Shown here in pieces: positions 309 through 16,228 of a stretch of 64,000 nt of DNA; the stretch's first letter is position 1, and each line of letters begins with the position of its first letter. Origin of the DNA: Paraburkholderia hospita. GTDB lineage: Bacteria; Pseudomonadota; Gammaproteobacteria; Burkholderiales; Burkholderiaceae. The translations under genes and the position numbers were made by a program. The DNA is taken from assembly GCF_002902965.1 (NCBI RefSeq), contig NZ_CP026106.1:2170001-2234000 (forward strand), read 5' to 3'. The notes under the pieces are model-generated. The model was not told the DNA's origin and did not search any database. It saw only the letters and a list, made by a program, of their open reading frames with translations.

Positions 309-1102
309 CGCTGCGACTCCTTCGATTGCGCGCCTTGCCACTTCGGCGCGCGTTTTTCGAGGAACGCGTTGACGCCCTCGCGCTGATCGGCGCCGTCGAA
401 CAGATCGACGAAGCGCTCGCGCTCCACGGCCAGCGCCGCCGTGCGCGGCACGCCGTTGCGCGCCTGCTGGATCAGATCCTTGCTGAACGTGACGGCCTGC
501 GGGCTCAAGCCCGCGACGCGCGCCGCCATCTGCAACGCGAATTCGCGCGCCGCGCCTTTCTCGACCACTTCCTCGACGAGCCCAATGCGCAGCGCCGTCG
601 CCGCATCGACGCGTTCGCCTGTCAGCACGATGCGCTTCGCCCAGCCTTCGCCGACGAGCCACGGCAGCGTCTGTGTGCCGCAGCCGCACGGCAGCAGGCC
701 AACGGCCGTTTCCGGCAACGCCATTACCGCGTGCTGCTCGGCGATGCGGATATCGCACGCGAGCGCGCACTCGAGCCCGCCGCCCATTGCATAGCCGTTG
801 ATCGCCGCGATCACGACGGGCCGCGCGTTTTGCAGCGTCTCGAACGCCGTGCCGAAGCGCGATGCTGCTTGTCGCGCGATTTCCTTGTTGCCGTCGGCGA
901 AGGTGTTCAGATCGGCGCCCGCGCTGAAGAACTTCGGGCCGTCGCCCGTGATGACGATTGCGCGCACTTGCGCGTCGCCGTTCAGGCGTTCGACGGTGTG
1001 CTGCAGCTGCGATAGCCCTTCCGGTGTGAATGCGTTCGCTGGCGGGCGCTTCAGGGTCAGCACGGCGACGCTGCCGTCATGCGCGTAGTCGAGTTCGATC
1101 AT
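305..1102 (-). CDS. Enoyl-CoA hydratase (valine branch)
   Basis: This 265-aa crotonase-family protein probably hydrates methacrylyl-CoA to 3-hydroxyisobutyryl-CoA. Visible features are FSAGADL (about 59-65), GYAMGGGLECALACDI (about 103-118) and ALPETAVGLLPCGCGTQ (about 129-145). Both glutamates used by true hydratases are present: Glu in GGGLE and Glu in LPE. One oddity is CGCGTQ where most hydratases have GAGGTQ. The start codon overlaps the mmsB stop (TAATG) and the stop overlaps the next start (ATGA), so mmsB, this gene and the hydrolase form one tight operon. Substrate assignment rests on context. Confidence 0.88.
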   Translation of the reverse strand: MIELDYAHDGSVAVLTLKRPPANAFTPEGLSQLQHTVERLNGDAQVRAIVITGDGPKFFSAGADLNTFADGNKEIARQAASRFGTAFETLQNARPVVIAAINGYAMGGGLECALACDIRIAEQHAVMALPETAVGLLPCGCGTQTLPWLVGEGWAKRIVLTGERVDAATALRIGLVEEVVEKGAAREFALQMAARVAGLSPQAVTFSKDLIQQARNGVPRTAALAVERERFVDLFDGADQREGVNAFLEKRAPKWQGAQSKESQR

Positions 1103-1995
1103 TACGCGTCTCCATCCTTGCGATACAGCTTGATCACCGCTGAGAAGTCGAGCTTACCGGCGCCGTTCGTGCTCATGGTCTGATAGAGCTGTTGCGCGAG
1201 CGCGCCGAGGTAGACGGGTTGGCGCGCGAGTTTGGCGGCATCGGTGGCGAGGCCGAGGTCCTTGAGCATCAGGTCGGTGCCGAAGCCGCCTGTGTAGCCG
1301 CGCGTCGACGGCGCGGTGTCGATGACGCCAGGGAACGGGTTGTAGGTGTCCGAACTCCAGCAACGGCCCGTCGATGTGTTGATGATTTTGCCCAGTACCT
1401 GGGGGTCGATGCCGAGTTTTTCGCCGAGTGCCATCGCTTCGGAAACGCCCGCCATCGTGATGCCTAGCACCAGGTTGTTGCAGATCTTTGCAACCTGGCC
1501 GGTCGAGGTTTCGCCGCAGTGGACTATGTTTTTGCCCATTGCTGAGAGGATTGGTTTCACCTGTTCGTAGGTTTCTGCGGTGCTGCCGACCATGAATGTC
1601 AGTGTGCCGGATGTGGCGCCGCCTGTGCCGCCTGAGACTGGCGCGTCTACGAAGGTGTTTCCATTCTGTGTCGCCAGTTCGGCGAAGGTTTTTACGCTGG
1701 CTGGGTCGATCGTGCTCGAGTCGATGATCGTCACGTTCTTCGCGATGCCCGCGAGGATGCCTTCTTCGCCTGTTAGCACTGCTTTTACATGTGCTGCGGC
1801 TGGGAGCATCGTGATGACATATTCGACGTCCGTCGATGCTTCTTTTGGCGTTTTTGCTGTTTTTGCGCCTGCTTGTTGCAGGGTTTCTAACGCTTGCGTG
1901 TTCAGATCGAAAACTCTTAGGGCGTGGCCCGCCTTTAGCAGGTTTAGCGCCATCGGCGCGCCCATGTTGCCTAGTCCTATGAAGCCGATTTTCAT
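1102..1995 (-). CDS. mmsB: 3-hydroxyisobutyrate dehydrogenase
   Basis: This 297-aa protein oxidises 3-hydroxyisobutyrate to methylmalonate semialdehyde with NAD+. It starts with the Rossmann motif GFIGLGNMG (4-12), has the substrate-binding DAPVSGG (117-123) and the catalytic lysine in GQVAKICNN (Lys170), and is family length. The gene opens the mmsB-hydratase-hydrolase operon and has the repeat element immediately upstream. Its 5' half uses unusual A-rich codons (many AAA, ACA, CTA) compared with GC-rich neighbours, part of the strand asymmetry described in the findings. Confidence 0.95.
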   Translation of the reverse strand: MKIGFIGLGNMGAPMALNLLKAGHALRVFDLNTQALETLQQAGAKTAKTPKEASTDVEYVITMLPAAAHVKAVLTGEEGILAGIAKNVTIIDSSTIDPASVKTFAELATQNGNTFVDAPVSGGTGGATSGTLTFMVGSTAETYEQVKPILSAMGKNIVHCGETSTGQVAKICNNLVLGITMAGVSEAMALGEKLGIDPQVLGKIINTSTGRCWSSDTYNPFPGVIDTAPSTRGYTGGFGTDLMLKDLGLATDAAKLARQPVYLGALAQQLYQTMSTNGAGKLDFSAVIKLYRKDGDA

Positions 1996-2104
1996 GTTCG
2001 CTCCTGTGGTTTTGTCTGCGACTGCTATGGCGGTGTTTTGCTTTCTGCGCTGGCATCCGCGATTTGTTAGCTTGCTTCAAGCGTCGCCCCTGTGCGGGGC
2101 GGCA

Positions 2105-2138
2105 CCTACTTTTCTTTGCCGCCGCAAAGAAAAGTAGG
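2105..2138. repeat. Perfect hairpin, left arm of copy A
   Basis: Perfect 15-bp stem CCTACTTTTCTTTGC / GCAAAGAAAAGTAGG with a CGCC loop. The same 34-nt unit occurs at 2617-2650, 13656-13689 and 15296-15329. Each is bordered on its outer side by the GCCCC(T/G)...GGGGC block. Confidence 0.95.
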
Positions 2139-2309
2139 CAAAAGAAAGCGGCTAACACCGCCAACATTTCTTCTTGCCTGAGGGCCCCCGAAGGGTCTTA
2201 CGCTTCACACGGCAATCACGTGACTCATCTTTGCTGCCAGCGCTCTTGCGCTGCGCCTCACCCGCTTCATGCGCCCGCGTTGCCGCACGCCGTGTCAGAT
2301 ATTCCACCG

Positions 2310-2446
2310 CCGCCCAGGTGGAAAACTGTGTGTAGGCCGTAGTACTCCACACGCCTCACTTCGGACCGATAGCGCACGCGTTCCACCATGTAAGAGCGCT
2401 AACGTATATGCCGCGACAACCTACACACAGTTTGCCACCTGGGCGG
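2310..2446. repeat. 137-bp core with 27-bp terminal inverted repeats (copy A)
   Basis: The core is bounded by CCGCCCAGGTGG plus (A/C)AAACTGTGTGTAGG at 2310-2336 and its near-perfect inverse at 2420-2446. The interior contains ACGCCTCACTTCGGACCGAT, AGCGCACGCGTTC and ATGTAAGAGCGC, well conserved in copy B (14988-15124, also exactly 137 bp). Equal length, terminal inverted repeats and lack of an ORF suggest a nested miniature element or a structured RNA. This is inference. Confidence 0.8.
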
Positions 2447-2616
2447 CACTAACCGTTCGCTACCGTTAGCAGTTATGCGGGCGGTTGAAGCGGGTGAGGC
2501 GTCTATTCAAAGCGTTGGCAACAAAGATGAGTCACGTGATTGCCGTGTGAAGCGTAAGACCTGTTGGGGGCCCTCAGGCAAACACAAGAGCTGGCGGTTT
2601 TAGCCGCTTTCTTTTG

Positions 2617-2650
2617 CCTACTTTTCTTTGCGGCGGCAAAGAAAAGTAGG
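2617..2650. repeat. Perfect hairpin, right arm of copy A
   Basis: Mirror-oriented copy of the 34-nt hairpin (stem 15 bp, loop GCGG on this strand), followed by GCCGCCCCGCACAGGGGC. It closes the right arm of the palindromic element. Confidence 0.95.
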
Positions 2651-2673
2651 TGCCGCCCCGCACAGGGGCGACG

Positions 2674-2806
2674 CGTGAACGGCAAACACCATAGCGCGGA
2701 TGCCAGCGCAAACACAAGCAAACCAACCCGGCCGCGCCACGAAGACAAATCGCGGATGCCAACTCAAAAACAAGCACACCACCCAGCGTCGCAGACAAAC
2801 AAAAAC
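2674..2806. repeat. Degenerate GCGGATGCCAGC-type tandem units, A+C-rich
   Basis: Units resembling GCGCGGATGCCAGCGCAAAC recur here (about 2694 and 2745, spaced ~50 bp), separated by ACAAGCAAACCAACC-like filler. Inverse-oriented relatives lie left of copy A (2046-2062) and left of copy B (13540-13620), and same-orientation ones right of copy B (15373-15450). By hand count, 2701-2760 is about 72% A+C and 2761-2820 about 78% A+C on the + strand. No gene is visible. Confidence 0.75.
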
Positions 2807-4336
2807 CTATCGAAGGCTAATGGTCGTATTCACACCATCACTGACAGTGGCATCATCAAACCACCTGGCCGTGACAGTCTTAGTCTGCGTATAAAACTGC
2901 ACAACCTGCTTGCCATAGGGCCCAAGATCCCCAAGCTTCGACCCGCGAGACCCAGTAAAACTAAAAAACGGAACCGGCACGGGAATAGGAATATTGATCC
3001 CAACCTGCCCAACATCGATCTCGCTCTGAAACTTCCGCGCCGCCGCGCCGCTCTGCGTGAAGAGTCCGACGCCATTACCCATCGGATTGCTATTCACAAG
3101 CGCAATCGCGTCGTCCAGCGTCGGCACGGTCATCACACACAACACAGGCCCAAAGATCTCCGTCTTATAGACATCCATCTCGACCGAAACATCACTAAAC
3201 ACCGTCGGCCCGATGAAATTACCGGCCTCGTAGCCAGGCACACCAACACCCCGCCCATCCAGCGCAAGCGTTGCACCCTCCTTCACGCCCGCGTCGATCA
3301 GCCCAAGAACACGCTCCTTCGCAGCACGCGAAACCACAGGCCCGATATCCGTGCCGCCCTCATGTCCGGCATTCACCTTCAACGTCTTCGCCTTCGCGAC
3401 AAGCTCGGGCAACCACTCCTTCGACGACCCCACCAGCACCACCACCGATGTCGCCATACACCGCTGCCCCGCCGCGCCAAAGCCGGCACCCACCAGCGCA
3501 TTCAACGTCTGCTCGCGGTTCGCATCAGGCAACACGACAGCGTGATTCTTCGCGCCCATCATCGATTGCACACGCTTGCCGTGCTGGCTGCCCAGGTTGT
3601 ACACATGCGTGCCCACCGCCGTCGATCCAACAAACGAAATCGCCTTCACCAACTCATGCGTGCACAACCCATCGACGACTTCCTTCCCGCCATGCACCAC
3701 GTTCAGCACGCCCTTCGGCACGCCCGCTTCGATGGCCAGCTCGACCAGTTGCATCGTCGATAGCGGGTCCTGCTCCGACGGCTTCAGAACGAATGTGTTG
3801 CCGCACACGATCGCCATCGGGAACATCCACAGCGGAATCATCGCGGGGAAGTTGAACGGCGTAATGCCCGCGCATACACCAATCGGCTGACGCAGCGTGT
3901 ACGTGTCAACACTCCCCGCCACGTTCTCCGCGAACTCGCCCTGCTGCAACGTGCCGATCGAGCACGCATGCTCGACCACTTCGAGGCCGCGGAAAATGTC
4001 GCCTTCTGCATCGGGCAAAGTCTTGCCCTGCTCCGCCGTCAAGGTCTTCGCAATGCGCGGCATGTGCTCTCGAATCAGTGCCTGGTACTTCAGCATGATC
4101 CGCATGCGCGCGCCAATCGGCGTGTTCTTCCAGGTCGCAAATGCGGCATGCGCGGAACGGATCGCCGCGTCCACTTCCGCTTTCGTCGCGAACGGTACGC
4201 GCGCCAGCACTTCCTGCGTCGCCGGATTCACGATGTCGCGCCACTCGGTCGCGCTCGACTCGACAAATTCGCCGTTGATCAACAGCTTGACCGTGTCGAC
4301 CTTGCGGTCAGCCAGAGTCGAAGGAATTGCGCTCAT
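2807..4336 (-). CDS. mmsA: Methylmalonate-semialdehyde dehydrogenase (CoA-acylating)
   Basis: This 509-aa aldehyde dehydrogenase converts methylmalonate semialdehyde plus CoA and NAD+ to propionyl-CoA and CO2. It has ITPFNFPAMIPLWMFPMA (about 158-175), the NAD-site segment FVGSTAVG (235-242) and the catalytic cysteine in GQRCMAT (Cys293). QRCMA and the FNFPAMIPLWMFP stretch are hallmarks of MmsA rather than other aldehyde dehydrogenases. It is normal length. The acyl-CoA synthetase gene ends 54 bp upstream of its start. Downstream lies the repeat element that separates it from mmsB. The 3' third is unusually A+C-rich on the + strand next to the repeat. Confidence 0.96.
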   Translation of the reverse strand: MSAIPSTLADRKVDTVKLLINGEFVESSATEWRDIVNPATQEVLARVPFATKAEVDAAIRSAHAAFATWKNTPIGARMRIMLKYQALIREHMPRIAKTLTAEQGKTLPDAEGDIFRGLEVVEHACSIGTLQQGEFAENVAGSVDTYTLRQPIGVCAGITPFNFPAMIPLWMFPMAIVCGNTFVLKPSEQDPLSTMQLVELAIEAGVPKGVLNVVHGGKEVVDGLCTHELVKAISFVGSTAVGTHVYNLGSQHGKRVQSMMGAKNHAVVLPDANREQTLNALVGAGFGAAGQRCMATSVVVLVGSSKEWLPELVAKAKTLKVNAGHEGGTDIGPVVSRAAKERVLGLIDAGVKEGATLALDGRGVGVPGYEAGNFIGPTVFSDVSVEMDVYKTEIFGPVLCVMTVPTLDDAIALVNSNPMGNGVGLFTQSGAAARKFQSEIDVGQVGINIPIPVPVPFFSFTGSRGSKLGDLGPYGKQVVQFYTQTKTVTARWFDDATVSDGVNTTISLR

Positions 4337-12192: not shown

Positions 12193-13494
12193 ATGGACTC
12201 CGTAAAACGGTATTTCGGCTTTGACGAAGCGGGCACGACCCTGCGCGTGGAAGTGCTGGCAGGCGTCACCACCTTCCTCACAATGGCCTACATCATCTTC
12301 GTCAACCCGGCGATTCTCGGCGATGCGGGCATGCCCAAAGACTCGGTGTTCGTTGCGACCTGCCTCGTGGCGGCGCTCGCGTCGCTCATCATGGGCTTCT
12401 ACGCGAACTACCCGATTGCGTGCGCGCCGGGCATGGGGCTGAATGCGTACTTCGCGTACACGGTCGTCAAGGGGATGGGCTTCACGTGGCAGGCCGCGCT
12501 CGGCGCGGTCTTTATCTCCGGCTGCCTGTTCCTGATCGTCACGCTGTTCCGCGTGCGCGAGGTGATCGTCAACGGCATTCCGCATTCGATTCGCGTCGCG
12601 ATCACGGGTGGCATCGGCCTCTTTCTCGCGATCATCTCGTTGAAGGCGGCGGGCATCGTGACGGGCAGTCCGGCGACGCTCGTCACGCTCGGCAACCTGC
12701 ACGATCCGCATGTGGTGCTGGCGATCATCGGCTTCTTCGCGATCGTCATGCTGGATGTTCTGCGCGTGCGCGGGGCGATTTTGATCGGTATTGTCGGCGT
12801 GACGATTTTGAGCTTCTTCTTCGGCGGCAACCAGTTTCACGGCATCGTGTCCGTGCCGCCGTCGATCTCGCCGACGCTGTTCCAGCTCGATGTGAAGGCC
12901 GCGTTGTCGACGGGCGTGCTGAATGTGATTCTGGTGTTCTTCCTCGTCGAACTGTTCGATGCGACGGGCACGCTGATGGGTGTTGCGAATCGCGCGGGGC
13001 TGCTTGTGCATGGCAAGATGCACCGTTTGAATCGCGCGCTGCTTGCGGATAGTACGGCGATCCTCGCCGGGTCGCTGCTGGGTACGTCGTCGACGACGGC
13101 TTATATCGAAAGCGCTTCGGGTGTTCAGGCGGGTGGGCGTACGGGTGTTACCGCGATTACCGTTGCTGTGCTGTTTTTGCTCGCGCTGTTCTTTGCGCCG
13201 CTGGCGGGGGTTGTGCCGGGTTATGCCACGGCGCCGGCTTTGCTGTATGTGTCGTGTCTCATGCTGCGGGAGATGGCCGACTTGCCTTGGGACGATGCTA
13301 CTGAAGTCGTGCCTGCTGCACTTACCGCTCTTATGATGCCGTTTACCTATTCCATTGCGAATGGGGTGGCGTTTGGGTTTATTTCTTATGCTGGGCTTAA
13401 GTTGCTCACCGGGCGCGCGCGGCAGGTGAAACTCGTTGTCTGGGTTATTGCTGCTGTGTTTTTGTTCCGGTTTTTTTATCTTGGGTCGGAGTGA
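12193..13494 (+). CDS. NCS2 family purine (adenine/guanine/hypoxanthine) permease
   Basis: This 433-aa polytopic transporter belongs to the AzgA/GhxP-AdeP branch. It starts MDSVKRYFGFDEAGTTLRVE, followed by GVTTFLTMAYIIFVNPAIL, APGMGLNAYF and FLVELFDATGTLMGVA, and GTSSTTAYIESASGVQAGGR near residue 300, all typical of this family. It probably imports purine bases with protons. The ATG at 12193 matches the family start; an upstream in-frame extension to 12055 is not needed. The last ~350 bp are strikingly G+T-rich (83% in 13441-13500 by hand count), unlike the first half (~53%), and adjoin repeat copy B. Confidence 0.92.
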   Translation: MDSVKRYFGFDEAGTTLRVEVLAGVTTFLTMAYIIFVNPAILGDAGMPKDSVFVATCLVAALASLIMGFYANYPIACAPGMGLNAYFAYTVVKGMGFTWQAALGAVFISGCLFLIVTLFRVREVIVNGIPHSIRVAITGGIGLFLAIISLKAAGIVTGSPATLVTLGNLHDPHVVLAIIGFFAIVMLDVLRVRGAILIGIVGVTILSFFFGGNQFHGIVSVPPSISPTLFQLDVKAALSTGVLNVILVFFLVELFDATGTLMGVANRAGLLVHGKMHRLNRALLADSTAILAGSLLGTSSTTAYIESASGVQAGGRTGVTAITVAVLFLLALFFAPLAGVVPGYATAPALLYVSCLMLREMADLPWDDATEVVPAALTALMMPFTYSIANGVAFGFISYAGLKLLTGRARQVKLVVWVIAAVFLFRFFYLGSE

Positions 13495-13632
13495 GGTTTT
13501 TGGTTTTTTTGTCTGCGACGCTGGGTGGGTGTTTGCGCTTGCGCTAGCATCCGCGCTTTAACTTCGTGGCGTAGCCGGTTTGGTTTGCTTGTGTTTGCGC
13601 TGGCATCCGCGCTACGGTGTTTGCCGTTCACA
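13495..13632. repeat. GCTGGCATCCGCGC tandem units, G+T-rich, left of copy B
   Basis: Units (G)C(T/G)AGCATCCGCGCTT and GCTGGCATCCGCGCTACGG at about 13545 and 13600 are inverse relatives of those right of copy A. The segment TGTTTGCGCTGGCATCCGCG followed by CTACGGTGTTTGCCGTTCAC is almost the exact reverse complement of 2678-2716. The + strand here is about 72% G+T in 13501-13560 by hand count. Confidence 0.75.
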
Positions 13633-13689
13633 CGTCGCCCCTGTGCGGGGCGGCACCTACTTTTCTTTGCCGCCGCAAAGAAAAGTAGG

Positions 13690-14813
13690 GGCGGTTTCAA
13701 AGGCTAAGTGCAACAGCGGGGTTGATCGCAATATCCTGTTCCGCGCATTTTTCCATAAAAGCTTCTGCAGGGGTCTTCCAGCCGAGCGTCTTGCGCGGAC
13801 GGATGTTCATGCGCATCGCGATCAGGTCGAGCTGGCGCTGCGAGAACACGGAGAGGTCTGTGCCTTTGGGCAGGTACTGGCGCAGCAGACCATTGGTGTT
13901 CTCGCAGATACCGCGTTGCCAGGGGCTGTGCGGATCGCAGAAGTAGATACGGATACCGGTGGCCTCGGCAAGCTTTTTATGTTCTGCCATTTCCTTGCCC
14001 TGGTCGTACGTCAGGGTCTGGCGCAGTTCTGCCGGCAGCGGCGCGAACGCCGCACTGTAGGCATCAAGCGCCGCCTCGGCGGTGCTGCCATCAATCTTCA
14101 CCAGCATCACGAACAGGGTGCTGCGATCAATCAGGGTCCCCACGGCCGAACGGTTGCCCGCACCCTTGATCAGATCGCCTTCCCAGTGGCCCGGAATCAA
14201 CCGGTCGTTGGCCTCGGGCGGGCGCACATGAATGCTCACCATGTCGACGAGCTTCCCACGGCGGTCCTGCCCGCGTGTGCGCGGCTTGCGCGTGCTACGC
14301 CCCTGCCTGAGCAGGGCAACCAGTTCACGCCGCAATGCGCCACGCGGCGCGGCATAGATGGCGTGGTAGATCGTTTCGTGCGAGACGTTCAAGGCAGGTT
14401 CTTCGGGATGCACACGTTCGAGTTGGGCGCACACCTGCTCAGGCGAGAGGCCGCCTTCCAGGTATTGACGTACCTCGGCCCACAATGGTCCGTCAGGATG
14501 CAGCTTGCGCTCACAGCGCGGCTTGCGCCGCAGCCTTGCCGCCCGGCGGCCCGCGTTCGCGGCATTGTAGCCGCCAGCGATAGCGGGACGTCCCATTGGA
14601 CCTCGCTCATGATCCGGCTTCCAGCCATTGCGCCTGAGTTCACGGCTGATCGTGGCTGGCGAACGCCGTAACACACGTGCAATCTCCCGCGTACTCTTGT
14701 TCTCCTGCTTCATTGCAAAGATAGCACCGCGCTCCTCGGCACCAAGGTGTTCGTATTTTTGTCCCATGCAACACATCCTAAATGAAGTGTTGCACTTGAT
14801 CCTTGAAACCGCC
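13690..14813 (-). mobile_element. IS30-family insertion sequence, complete (1124 bp)
   Basis: Terminal inverted repeats of ~25 bp: the left end begins GGCGGTTTCAAAGGCTAAG and the right end, inverted, begins GGCGGTTTCAAGGATCAAG, both followed by TGCAAC. It is flanked by a 3-bp target duplication AGG (13687-13689 and 14814-14816). One transposase gene fills it and stops inside the left terminal repeat. Intact ends, intact ORF and unskewed base composition imply recent insertion. Confidence 0.93.
13697..14767 (-). CDS. IS30-family transposase
   Basis: This ~356-aa DDE transposase begins MGQKYEHLGAEERGAIFAM. It has a helix-turn-helix (STREIARVLRRSPATISREL) and an IS30-type rve/DDE catalytic domain with HWEGDLIKG and TYDQGKEMAEH, then IYFCDPHSPWQRGICENTNG, which supply the D, D and E(N) positions. 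The C-terminus is RKTLGWKTPAEAF, classical for IS30. An ATG three codons earlier (14776) is also possible. The reading frame is intact, so the element may be active. Confidence 0.95.
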   Translation of the reverse strand: MGQKYEHLGAEERGAIFAMKQENKSTREIARVLRRSPATISRELRRNGWKPDHERGPMGRPAIAGGYNAANAGRRAARLRRKPRCERKLHPDGPLWAEVRQYLEGGLSPEQVCAQLERVHPEEPALNVSHETIYHAIYAAPRGALRRELVALLRQGRSTRKPRTRGQDRRGKLVDMVSIHVRPPEANDRLIPGHWEGDLIKGAGNRSAVGTLIDRSTLFVMLVKIDGSTAEAALDAYSAAFAPLPAELRQTLTYDQGKEMAEHKKLAEATGIRIYFCDPHSPWQRGICENTNGLLRQYLPKGTDLSVFSQRQLDLIAMRMNIRPRKTLGWKTPAEAFMEKCAEQDIAINPAVALSL

Positions 14814-14987
14814 AGGCAAAAGAAAGCGGCTAACACCGCCAACATTTCTTCTTGCCTGAGGGCCCCCAACCGGTCTTACGCTTCACACGGCAATCACGTG
14901 ACCCATGTTCGTTGCCAACGCTTCGAATGAGCGCCTCACCCGCTTCAGGCCCCCACGTTGCAGCATGCCGTGCCAGATATTCCACGG

Positions 14988-15124
14988 CCGCCCAGGTGGC
15001 AAACTGTGTGTTGGCCGTAGTGCCTCGCACGCCTCACTTCGGACCGATAGCGCACGCGTTCCTCCATGTAAGAGCGCCAAGCTATACGGCGCGACAACCT
15101 ACACACAGTTTGCCACCTGGGCGG
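14988..15124. repeat. 137-bp core with terminal inverted repeats (copy B)
   Basis: Bounded by CCGCCCAGGTGGCAAACTGT at 14988 and its inverse ending CCACCTGGGCGG at 15124. Same length as the core at 2310-2446, with scattered substitutions mostly in the interior. ACGCCTCACTTCGGACCGAT and AGCGCACGCGTTCC are retained. Confidence 0.8.
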
Positions 15125-15352
15125 CACGTACGATTCGCTGCCGCTTGCCCGAGTACGGGTATTCGAAGCGGGTGAGGCGTTCATTCGGAGCGTTGGCAAC
15201 GAGCACCAACCAGGGCCACTGCCGTGTGAAGTGTAGGACCGGTTGGGGGCCCTCAGGCAAACACAAGAGCTGGCGGTGTTAGCCGCTTTCTTTTGCCTAC
15301 TTTTCTTTGCGGCGGCAAAGAAAAGTAGGTGCCGCCCCGCACAGGGGCGACG

Positions 15353-15640
15353 CTTGAAGCACGAAGGCAATACGCGGATGCCAGCGCCGAGGCAAAAGAA
15401 CCAACCGCTTGCGCAGCAAACACCGTAGCGCGGATGCCAGCGAACACCCCAAAAAACCAAACCGTCCGCGCCACAAAGGCTCATACCAGCGCAAAAACCG
15501 AAACCCCGAACGGCATCGCCGCACCGCAGGTCCCGTTCGCAGACGAAAAAAAACAAAAGCAAAACCAAAAACAAAACCCTTGCCCCCATCCCCGTTGCAC
15601 CGCACAATCCCCACTCAAACCCCACCTTCTGGTGCCACCC
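15353..15640. other. A+C-rich stretch right of copy B, no gene
   Basis: Contains GCGGATGCCAGCG units at about 15377 and 15433 and then low-complexity A/C sequence. 15541-15600 is about 82% A+C by hand count, including runs of AAAAC. An in-frame extension of the downstream ORF crosses this region but has no protein-like character. It precedes the nucleotidyltransferase gene and must hold its promoter. Confidence 0.6.
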
Positions 15641-16228
15641 ATGGCATACGCCTCCTTCGCTACCGGCGTGCTGCTCGCGGCCGGCTACGGATCGCGCTTC
15701 GACCCGGAAGGCATCCACAATAAACTCCTCGCCCGCCTGCCCGACGGCACCCCCGTCGCATTCGAATCCGCGCATCGCCTGCTGCTGGTCGTCCCGCACG
15801 TCATCGCGATCGTGCGCCCCGGCTCGGAGATGCTCGCCCGCGTGCTCAACGACGCCGGCTGTCACGTCATCTTTTCCGCCGACGCCGAGCGCGGCATGGG
15901 CGCAAGCCTCGCCGCCAGCATCGAAGCGAGCGATGACGCCGACGGCTGGATCGTCGCGCTCGCCGACATGCCCCGCATCGCCACGCCAACCATCGAAGCC
16001 GTCGCGCGCGCAGTCGACGACGGCGCGTCCATCGTCGCGCCCTACTATCAGGGACAGCGCGGCCATCCCGTCGGCTTCGGCATGGAGCATCGCGAGGCGC
16101 TGCTCACGCTCGATGGTGACACCGGCGCGCGCGCACTCTTCGCAACGCATCCCGTGAAGCGCATCGAAGTCGACGATCCGGGCGTGCTCAGCGATATCGA
16201 CACGCCCGAAGACCTGCGCAACGTCTAG
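15641..16228 (+). CDS. MobA-like NTP transferase (molybdenum cofactor cytidylyltransferase type)
   Basis: This 195-aa protein has the nucleotidyltransferase start TGVLLAAGYGSRF, an expected substrate lysine in HNKLLARLPDG, GMGASLAASIEA and the metal-binding GWIVALADMPRI, ending with GDTGARALF and DIDTPEDL. This matches the MocA/MobA-like family, which transfers CMP or GMP to molybdopterin. No molybdoenzyme is adjacent in the window, so the specific partner is unknown. The start at 15641 is chosen because homology begins at ASFATGVLLAAG; the in-frame sequence upstream is low-complexity. Confidence 0.85.
   Translation: MAYASFATGVLLAAGYGSRFDPEGIHNKLLARLPDGTPVAFESAHRLLLVVPHVIAIVRPGSEMLARVLNDAGCHVIFSADAERGMGASLAASIEASDDADGWIVALADMPRIATPTIEAVARAVDDGASIVAPYYQGQRGHPVGFGMEHREALLTLDGDTGARALFATHPVKRIEVDDPGVLSDIDTPEDLRNV

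Follow-up and report, generated by a model that had tools for sequence, protein, structure and literature searches.

SbcCD, the palindrome nuclease of Escherichia coli, cuts long palindromes, and stressed E. coli shows mutation hotspots at I-SceI breaks; to our knowledge, break-linked mutation has so far been studied mainly at engineered breaks, and strand asymmetry of the neighboring genes is not, as far as we know, part of the I-SceI system. In yeast with engineered breaks and applied ultraviolet light (UV), the UV-induced mutations beside the breaks fall on pyrimidines of the unresected strand (PMC2577886). Here we analyzed a 64,000-nucleotide stretch of Paraburkholderia hospita (the window; G000:C2:2170001-2234000 of the 11.5 Mb, six-contig genome G000), which contains two copies of a dispersed inverted-repeat element, the first of them between the genes mmsB and mmsA. 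These copies, and others in this genome and its relatives, are flanked by an element-centered, two-sided strand asymmetry that decays with distance.

We measured composition as K, the G+T fraction, on the + strand for the window and, for flanks, on the strand whose 3' end lies at the element. The first-pass annotation had reported a mirror-image asymmetry centered on a palindromic element and entering both mmsB and mmsA, and all eleven of its 60-nt hand counts were reproduced. At 200-1000 bp, the mirror contrast K(left)-K(right) is 0.222 at the first element and 0.195 at the second, against a mean of -0.002 (standard deviation 0.031, maximum 0.071) at 954 other window positions. Among the 50 listed extreme 240-nt G+T values (the 25 lowest and 25 highest), 41 lie in the flanks of the two elements, and the other nine lie near 9.8-10.0, 17.3-17.4, 20.6-20.8, 26.7 and 39.3 kb. 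The left flank covers mmsB and the right one the 3' part of mmsA, and on both sides the strand poor in C and A is the one with its 3' end at the element. The center itself had to be moved from a single hairpin to the whole element, a 546-bp inverted repeat (2105-2650) composed of two inverted 34-bp hairpins with nested inner and outer arms.

Besides the window, our coverage of G000 comprised portions of contig C1 within its first 2.8 Mb, where about 100 of the 296 hairpins were listed, 42 element pairs were compiled and 40 elements (80 flanks) were used. Mean K across these elements is 0.66-0.69 at 0-200 bp, and in each of the two 100-bp bins there every one of the 80 flanks exceeds 0.5; these first 200 bp contain outer arms that belong to the element and are not countable as mutated host DNA. 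Farther out, it declines to 0.61 at 200-300 bp, 0.57 at 400-600 bp, 0.53 at 900-1100 bp and about 0.50 from 2.4 kb, and an exponential fit beyond 200 bp yields a decay length of 594 ± 45 bp with a baseline of 0.500. Both GC skew and TA skew add to the asymmetry, and GC content drops from about 0.64 to about 0.59. At 200-1000 bp, K exceeds 0.5 in 73 of 80 flanks, compared with 39 of 80 at 4200-5000 bp.

The annotation had named skew at other copies as a check, and it was seen in all five genomes surveyed. Counting intact copies only (127, many of them orthologous), K exceeds 0.5 at 200-800 bp in 71 of 80 flanks in G000, 77 of 78 in G053, 54 of 56 in G001, and 20 of 20 in both G138 and G027, or 171 of 174 in the four relatives pooled. 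Ordinary hairpins were rejected as a cause: 17 perfect hairpins with a stem of at least 11, at least 2.6 kb from any element, give a K of 0.50. REP-like palindromes were likewise rejected, since 19 Pseudomonas cases from 43 loci show no shift beyond 300 bp, with K of 0.53, 0.48 and 0.50 at 50-300, 300-600 and 600-1000 bp, compared with 0.67, 0.57 and 0.54 in element flanks. Places with a single hairpin (seven loci: one in G138, five in G037 and one in G142) gave mixed results, one of them having a second, relaxed hairpin, and are too few to use.

The second check, skew in mmsA and mmsB orthologs that lack the repeat, also came out as the annotation had anticipated. For mmsB, we scored 32 of 80 loci plus the window, 33 in total; its closest named holders are Paraburkholderia sp. 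C35 (89% protein identity) and Tr-20389 (88%). Third-position G+T in the first 600 bp is 0.23-0.30 in the three with an upstream element (the window, L098 and L099) and 0.35-0.60 in the 30 loci without one. Across 30 realigned mmsA loci, G+T in the 300 bp nearest the element is 0.38-0.42 in the eight with an element, window included, and 0.48-0.54 in the 20 without any hairpin; L076, with one relaxed hairpin at the contig edge, has 0.43, and L078, with one degenerate hairpin, has 0.49. Because the eight element-bearing mmsA loci are close relatives, this contrast taken alone may reflect one phylogenetic event.

While the five genomes define strand and reach, three of them (G000, G053 and G001) provide the substitution spectrum and its dependence on the element. 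With G001 as outgroup, the parsimony set retained 47 of the 80 flanks and dropped 33; a flank had to align over 1200 bp or more and have, in all three species, an element no farther than 450 bp away at the orthologous place. On the 3'-ended strand, the per-site C>T/G>A ratio is 1.84 at 0-200 bp, then 2.90, 2.44, 2.64 and 2.38 up to 1 kb, and past 1 kb it falls through 1.77, 1.55, 1.41 and 1.29 to 1.00 at 2.6-3.4 kb. We then fitted a non-reversible maximum likelihood (ML) model with 12 rates, weak priors and a loose clock to four-fold degenerate sites, using 148 genes called in the flanks by their codon-position substitution pattern. At 100-800 bp, C>T/G>A reaches 4.00, A>G/T>C 1.86, C>G/G>C 1.93 and G>T/C>A 2.28, compared with 1.22, 0.92, 0.90 and 0.91 at 1.8-3.4 kb; beyond 1.8 kb, all six complementary contrasts lie within 0.90-1.59. 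The C-to-T and A-to-G changes that the annotation had ascribed to damage are borne out at 4.0-fold and 1.9-fold over the complements, and the spectrum is wider than proposed, with C>G and G>T also raised. The ML C>T rate on the 3'-ended strand near the element is 0.120 versus 0.046 far away, about 2.6-fold. The model predicts an equilibrium K near the element of 0.715; the observed value of 0.697 is close to it, which places the flanks not far from mutational equilibrium under local conditions.

The shift at four-fold sites does not depend on gene orientation or side. At 100-400 bp, their K is 0.79 in genes pointing toward the element and 0.71 in genes pointing away (0.55 and 0.42 far off), and 0.75 on the left and 0.79 on the right, with C>T/G>A of 4.9 and 3.7, respectively. 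Within the same 100-400 bp, codons differ synonymously at 0.157, up from 0.12, and amino acids differ at 0.059, up from 0.033; the amino-acid increase may reflect lax protein ends.

The substitution bias is also associated with the presence of the element. At three sites where only G053 carries it (six flanks), G053 accumulated 221 substitutions versus 92 in G000, compared with 2284 versus 1501 at sites with the element in all three species (Fisher test against the gain flanks, p=0.0004). Five polymorphic sites give a C>T:G>A of 139:62 where the lineage has the element and of 56:37 where it does not. Ten flanks classed as absent from G000 and present in G053 and G001 form an impure class, as L189 left, L193 right and L203 right have a G000 element 1.5-1.8 kb off, probably behind an insertion. 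Sites L278 and L279 failed the filters and lay outside the gain and loss substitution comparison.

This pattern resembles the UV-induced mutations beside an engineered break in yeast, on the unresected strand and on either side, and for this reason we prefer, as the probable account and with some reservation, recurrent two-ended breaks at the element with 5' resection, or something equivalent that exposes the 3'-ended strand on both sides, and then damage of the bare strands. Each element of about 550 bp would act as a recurrent two-ended DNA break site or the site of an equivalent 3'-strand-baring event, and 5'-to-3' resection would leave as much as about 2 kb of the 3'-ended strands unpaired. 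Before refilling, the bare strands would suffer base damage and miscopying, C>T foremost but also A>G, C>G and G>T, and the neighboring genes would drift to a new mutational equilibrium with a G+T excess on the strand ending at the element. The annotation had already proposed breakage with 5' resection; strand, two-sidedness, decay and both predicted changes agree with it, while we infer the break, its agent, resection rather than another two-sided 3'-strand exposure, the damage type and the enzyme. What a resected break should leave behind is found here: a 3'-strand bias on both sides, decay with distance, and independence of gene orientation and of fork direction, with 11 elements beyond 2.2 Mb leaning to the presumed origin-proximal side. 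The rises in C>G and G>T suggest oxidative damage or error-prone refilling in addition to deamination. As a rough check, assuming a spontaneous C>T rate of about 1e-10 per base per generation and a single-stranded cytosine deamination rate of about 1e-10 per second, the C>T excess corresponds to a few seconds' exposure per generation, or to one half-hour break per about 1000 generations per element.

Several observations weigh against recurrent breakage and must be set beside it. By parsimony, T>C exceeds A>G per site at every distance up to 2.6 kb, a deficit for which parallel C>T changes could be the source, and the ML A>G/T>C ratio exceeds 1 only at 100-800 bp, being 0.72 at 800-1800 bp. 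Nine of the 80 G000 flanks have no G+T excess at 200-800 bp, and in G134 (L078) a degenerate hairpin 225 bp from mmsA has no skew beside it (G+T 0.49). The C>T:G>A comparison of gained and sister lineages, 71:25 versus 30:18, is not significant (p=0.18; six flanks, three sites). The cleanest gain site, L183, is biased on the left only (18:2, with 7:7 on the right), and the left flank of its empty orthologs was already G+T-rich at 0.565 and 0.562, compared with 0.581 with the element; L212 left, also a gain flank, shows no change in G053. At shared sites the bias in G000, 1.58, is below the 2.62 of G053. Arms are no more alike within an element than between elements (identity 0.77 versus 0.80 across 40 G000 elements), so no foldback repair is seen, and foldback-primed homogenization of the arms was rejected. 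Finally, SbcC and SbcD fall under the NCBIfam cut-offs in all ten genomes searched (G000, G001, G053, G042, G138, G027, G011, G052, G044 and G123), cut-offs strict enough that only one (SbcC) and eight (SbcD) of 14 control genomes pass, with 33 SbcC candidates scored per genome. The best-known palindrome-cutting route may therefore be missing here, which may itself be the reason such palindromes persist; divergent homologs in the ten genomes are possible. RecB, by contrast, passes its cut-off in all ten. G000 also has a second recB-like gene, and about 10 kb from it, on contig C4, there is a partial SbcD-like match of 57 bits.

Among the alternatives, ectopic recombination between copies, by gene conversion, break-induced replication or transformation ending in elements, would bare and resynthesize the flanks with no need for a dedicated break site. 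Long single strands are exposed during break-induced synthesis, and the mosaic look of the element interiors fits such exchange; an initiating end is needed anyway, however, and these data do not distinguish this account from recurrent breakage. We regard it as improbable as a separate account.

Fork stalling, in which forks halt at the palindrome and the lagging-strand template behind them stays single-stranded and mutates, is very unlikely in our view. Its strand polarity fits each approaching fork, a G+T excess on the leading strand is the usual bacterial replication skew, and at the 11 elements at 2.2-2.8 Mb the right, presumed origin-proximal flank has a K of 0.592 versus 0.550 on the left. 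The origin and terminus are placed solely from far + strand K, about 0.51 below 2.2 Mb and 0.49 above, which suggests a terminus there. Stalling, however, predicts skew on the origin-proximal side only, whereas in each of four coordinate bins the 29 elements below 2.2 Mb have about the same K to the left (0.535-0.590) as to the right (0.533-0.585), the full set of 40 elements shows no left-right difference (Wilcoxon p=0.20), and four-fold C>T/G>A is raised on both sides. These near-equal sides make fork stalling alone, and transcription as well, poor explanations.

In the transcriptional version, the element would end convergent transcripts, and the displaced non-template strand running toward it, bared by R-loops, would mutate. 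The nearest called gene does aim at the element in 33 of 47 flanks, and coding strands are slightly G+T-rich even far off (0.55). Genes pointing away nevertheless shift likewise at four-fold sites, from 0.42 to 0.71, mmsB included, their ML C>T/G>A is 2.59 near and 0.70 far, and transcripts leaving the element would be expected to bare the opposite strand; this explanation is accordingly a shade less credible still. Least credible of all is an insertion preference, in which the element lands at a pre-existing skew switch: the same 33 of 47 gene orientations and the G+T-rich L183 left flank before insertion (0.565, 0.562) speak for it, but neither mmsA nor mmsB shows the skew in orthologs where the element is absent, and element-bearing lineages have biased substitutions on the 3'-ended strand. 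A one-strand transposition intermediate would presumably give no mirrored pattern.

Turning to the element family, G000 contains 296 exact hairpin-pattern matches, and as those listed are mostly paired, up to about 148 elements are expected. Two inverted palindromic ends and dispersal through the genome are traits that the family shares with REPINs. Of 144 genomes of the genus, 116 contain the core hairpin; the exact 34-bp form occurs in 33 of 118 genomes, G000 among them, all of the same genus, and some species carry more than 350 hairpins. Junctions and sites were examined by eye. At a clean empty site (element in G053, none in G000 and G001), the inserted unit includes the outer repeats and is located just after a terminator-like hairpin, replacing about 30 bp, with no obvious target duplication; at another G053-only site, about 915 bp are inserted relative to G001. 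In G000, the core is gone at L262 (about 8200) and L281 (about 7640) while the outer arms remain, and both junctions fall on microhomologies of 5-6 bp within the small inverted repeats flanking the palindrome; core loss at short flanking repeats is typical of palindrome deletion. Near-perfect arms (a 96-nt perfect run) occur only in the G053 gain at L183 and not in L179 or L212, and the idea that the palindromes are born perfect was rejected. Element interiors look mosaic by eye. In five further elements, the hairpins are separated by an additional 1.1-1.3 kb or so of DNA; all 5 of the 5 elements scored with a long insert there keep the skew to the left and to the right, perhaps as a matter of history. 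The outermost arms at L195:4600-4660, L179:10640-10720 and L283:4600-4680 finish in brief A/C-rich tandem repeats, for example (GCAAAA)n or (CCCAAA)n, which make the 3'-ended strand rich in G and T, as in telomere repeats. The features of the window are collected in the table.

Table. Features of the two elements and their surroundings (window coordinates).
Feature	Position	Strand	Remarks
mmsB	1102-1995	-	transcription away from first element
Left skewed flank, first element	1141..2040	+	+ strand G+T-rich, 0.55-0.64 per 120 nt; covers mmsB
Bp1_684-matching outer arms	2016-2115, 2640-2724, 13569-13666, 15319-15419
G+T-rich unit	2029-2067		left mirror of the A+C-rich outer-arm units
Palindromic core	2076..2679		outer arms 2076-2244 / 2511-2679, 92% complementary
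Left small inverted repeat	2086..2100		GCCCCTGTGCGGGGC
Left terminal hairpin	2105..2138		CCTACTTTTCTTTGC-CGCC-GCAAAGAAAAGTAGG; 296 exact pattern matches in genome
Core inner arms	2254-2278 / 2477-2501 and 2309-2336 / 2420-2447
Right terminal hairpin	2617..2650		GGCG loop; inverted copy of left; 512 bp start to start
Right small inverted repeat	2655..2669		GCCCCGCACAGGGGC
Outer arm	2690..2784	+	two A+C-rich units spaced 56 nt (CGCGGATGCCAGCGC...)
mmsA	2807-4336	-	transcription toward first element
Right skewed flank, first element	2807..3720	-	+ strand A+C-rich, G+T 0.32-0.47 per 120 nt; mmsA 3' part
Left skewed flank, second element	12440..13640	+	G+T up to 0.73 per 120 nt; Xan_ur_permease-family gene, transcribed toward element
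Second element	13656..15329		same terminal hairpins; interrupted by IS30-like insertion
IS30-like insertion	about 13690-14813		within second element; transposase gene with HTH_38 and rve domains; flanked by short inverted repeats
Right skewed flank, second element	15330..15800	-	+ strand G+T as low as 0.25 per 120 nt; before and inside MobA-like gene, transcribed away

Collectively, a one-sided mutation pattern extends 1-2 kb into the genes on either side of a palindrome of roughly 150 copies, in this bacterium and its relatives, and without experiment the evolutionary record of 127 copies in five genomes gives strand and reach, and that of three of these genomes spectrum and element dependence. 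The elements thereby offer a natural system in which to measure bacterial resection length, single-strand damage and refilling errors. They also carry a warning, as repeats can alter the codon usage, skew-based annotation and evolutionary rates of adjoining genes, and they make one ask how long palindromes are cut, or tolerated, in a genus in which SbcC and SbcD did not pass the cut-offs. Going beyond recurrent breakage as such, we tentatively entertain the doubtful further idea that the elements are built-in break sites, a standing set of points where mutation is raised locally and recombination begins: the 150 or so palindromes of a genome would raise mutation, with a strand bias, in the ends of several hundred genes, and their outer arms would grow G/T-rich 3'-ended repeats of telomere polarity. 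Such sites could be likened to the break hotspots of eukaryotic meiosis.

Among known repeats, the REP/REPIN sequences and their RAYT are alike in having short palindromes that are paired in inverted orientation and number in the hundreds, whereas here about 550 bp separate the paired hairpins, outer arms are added and no RAYT tracks the element (PMC3116915). RAYT was rejected as the mover: PF01797 matches occur in all 12 element-rich genomes and in all 10 genomes without the core hairpin, and single out no cognate RAYT. Each of the 22 genomes scanned has one weak Y1-transposase-like match (24-28.5 bits; G000:C1:3659466-3659756 and counterparts), and two high-scoring Y1 matches in G000 have a stop inside. 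The Burkholderia candidate small RNA (sRNA) Bp1_684 (Rfam RF02421) matches four outer arms of the two window elements at 31-41 bits, the best at 40.9 and thus below the gathering score of 44, and what that family groups together may be repeats and not individual sRNA genes. The available text of a 2012 Burkholderia sRNA paper, not confirmed as the source of Bp1_684, contains no word starting with "684" or "repeat", though names like Cand684 would escape such a match (PMC3521395).

With SbcCD-cut palindromes of E. coli, the elements share palindrome-linked deletions and, as proposed, breaks, the difference being that SbcC and SbcD are below the cut-off in the ten genomes here. The I-SceI hotspots are likewise bacterial and local to a break, but the break is engineered and no natural repeat family is involved. 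The closest likeness is to single-stranded DNA hypermutation in yeast, at engineered breaks and uncapped telomeres: an engineered break with applied UV or methyl methanesulfonate there stands against a natural bacterial repeat, an evolutionary footprint and no added mutagen here, and the two agree in the unresected 3'-ended strand, on either side, over a kilobase scale (PMC2577886).

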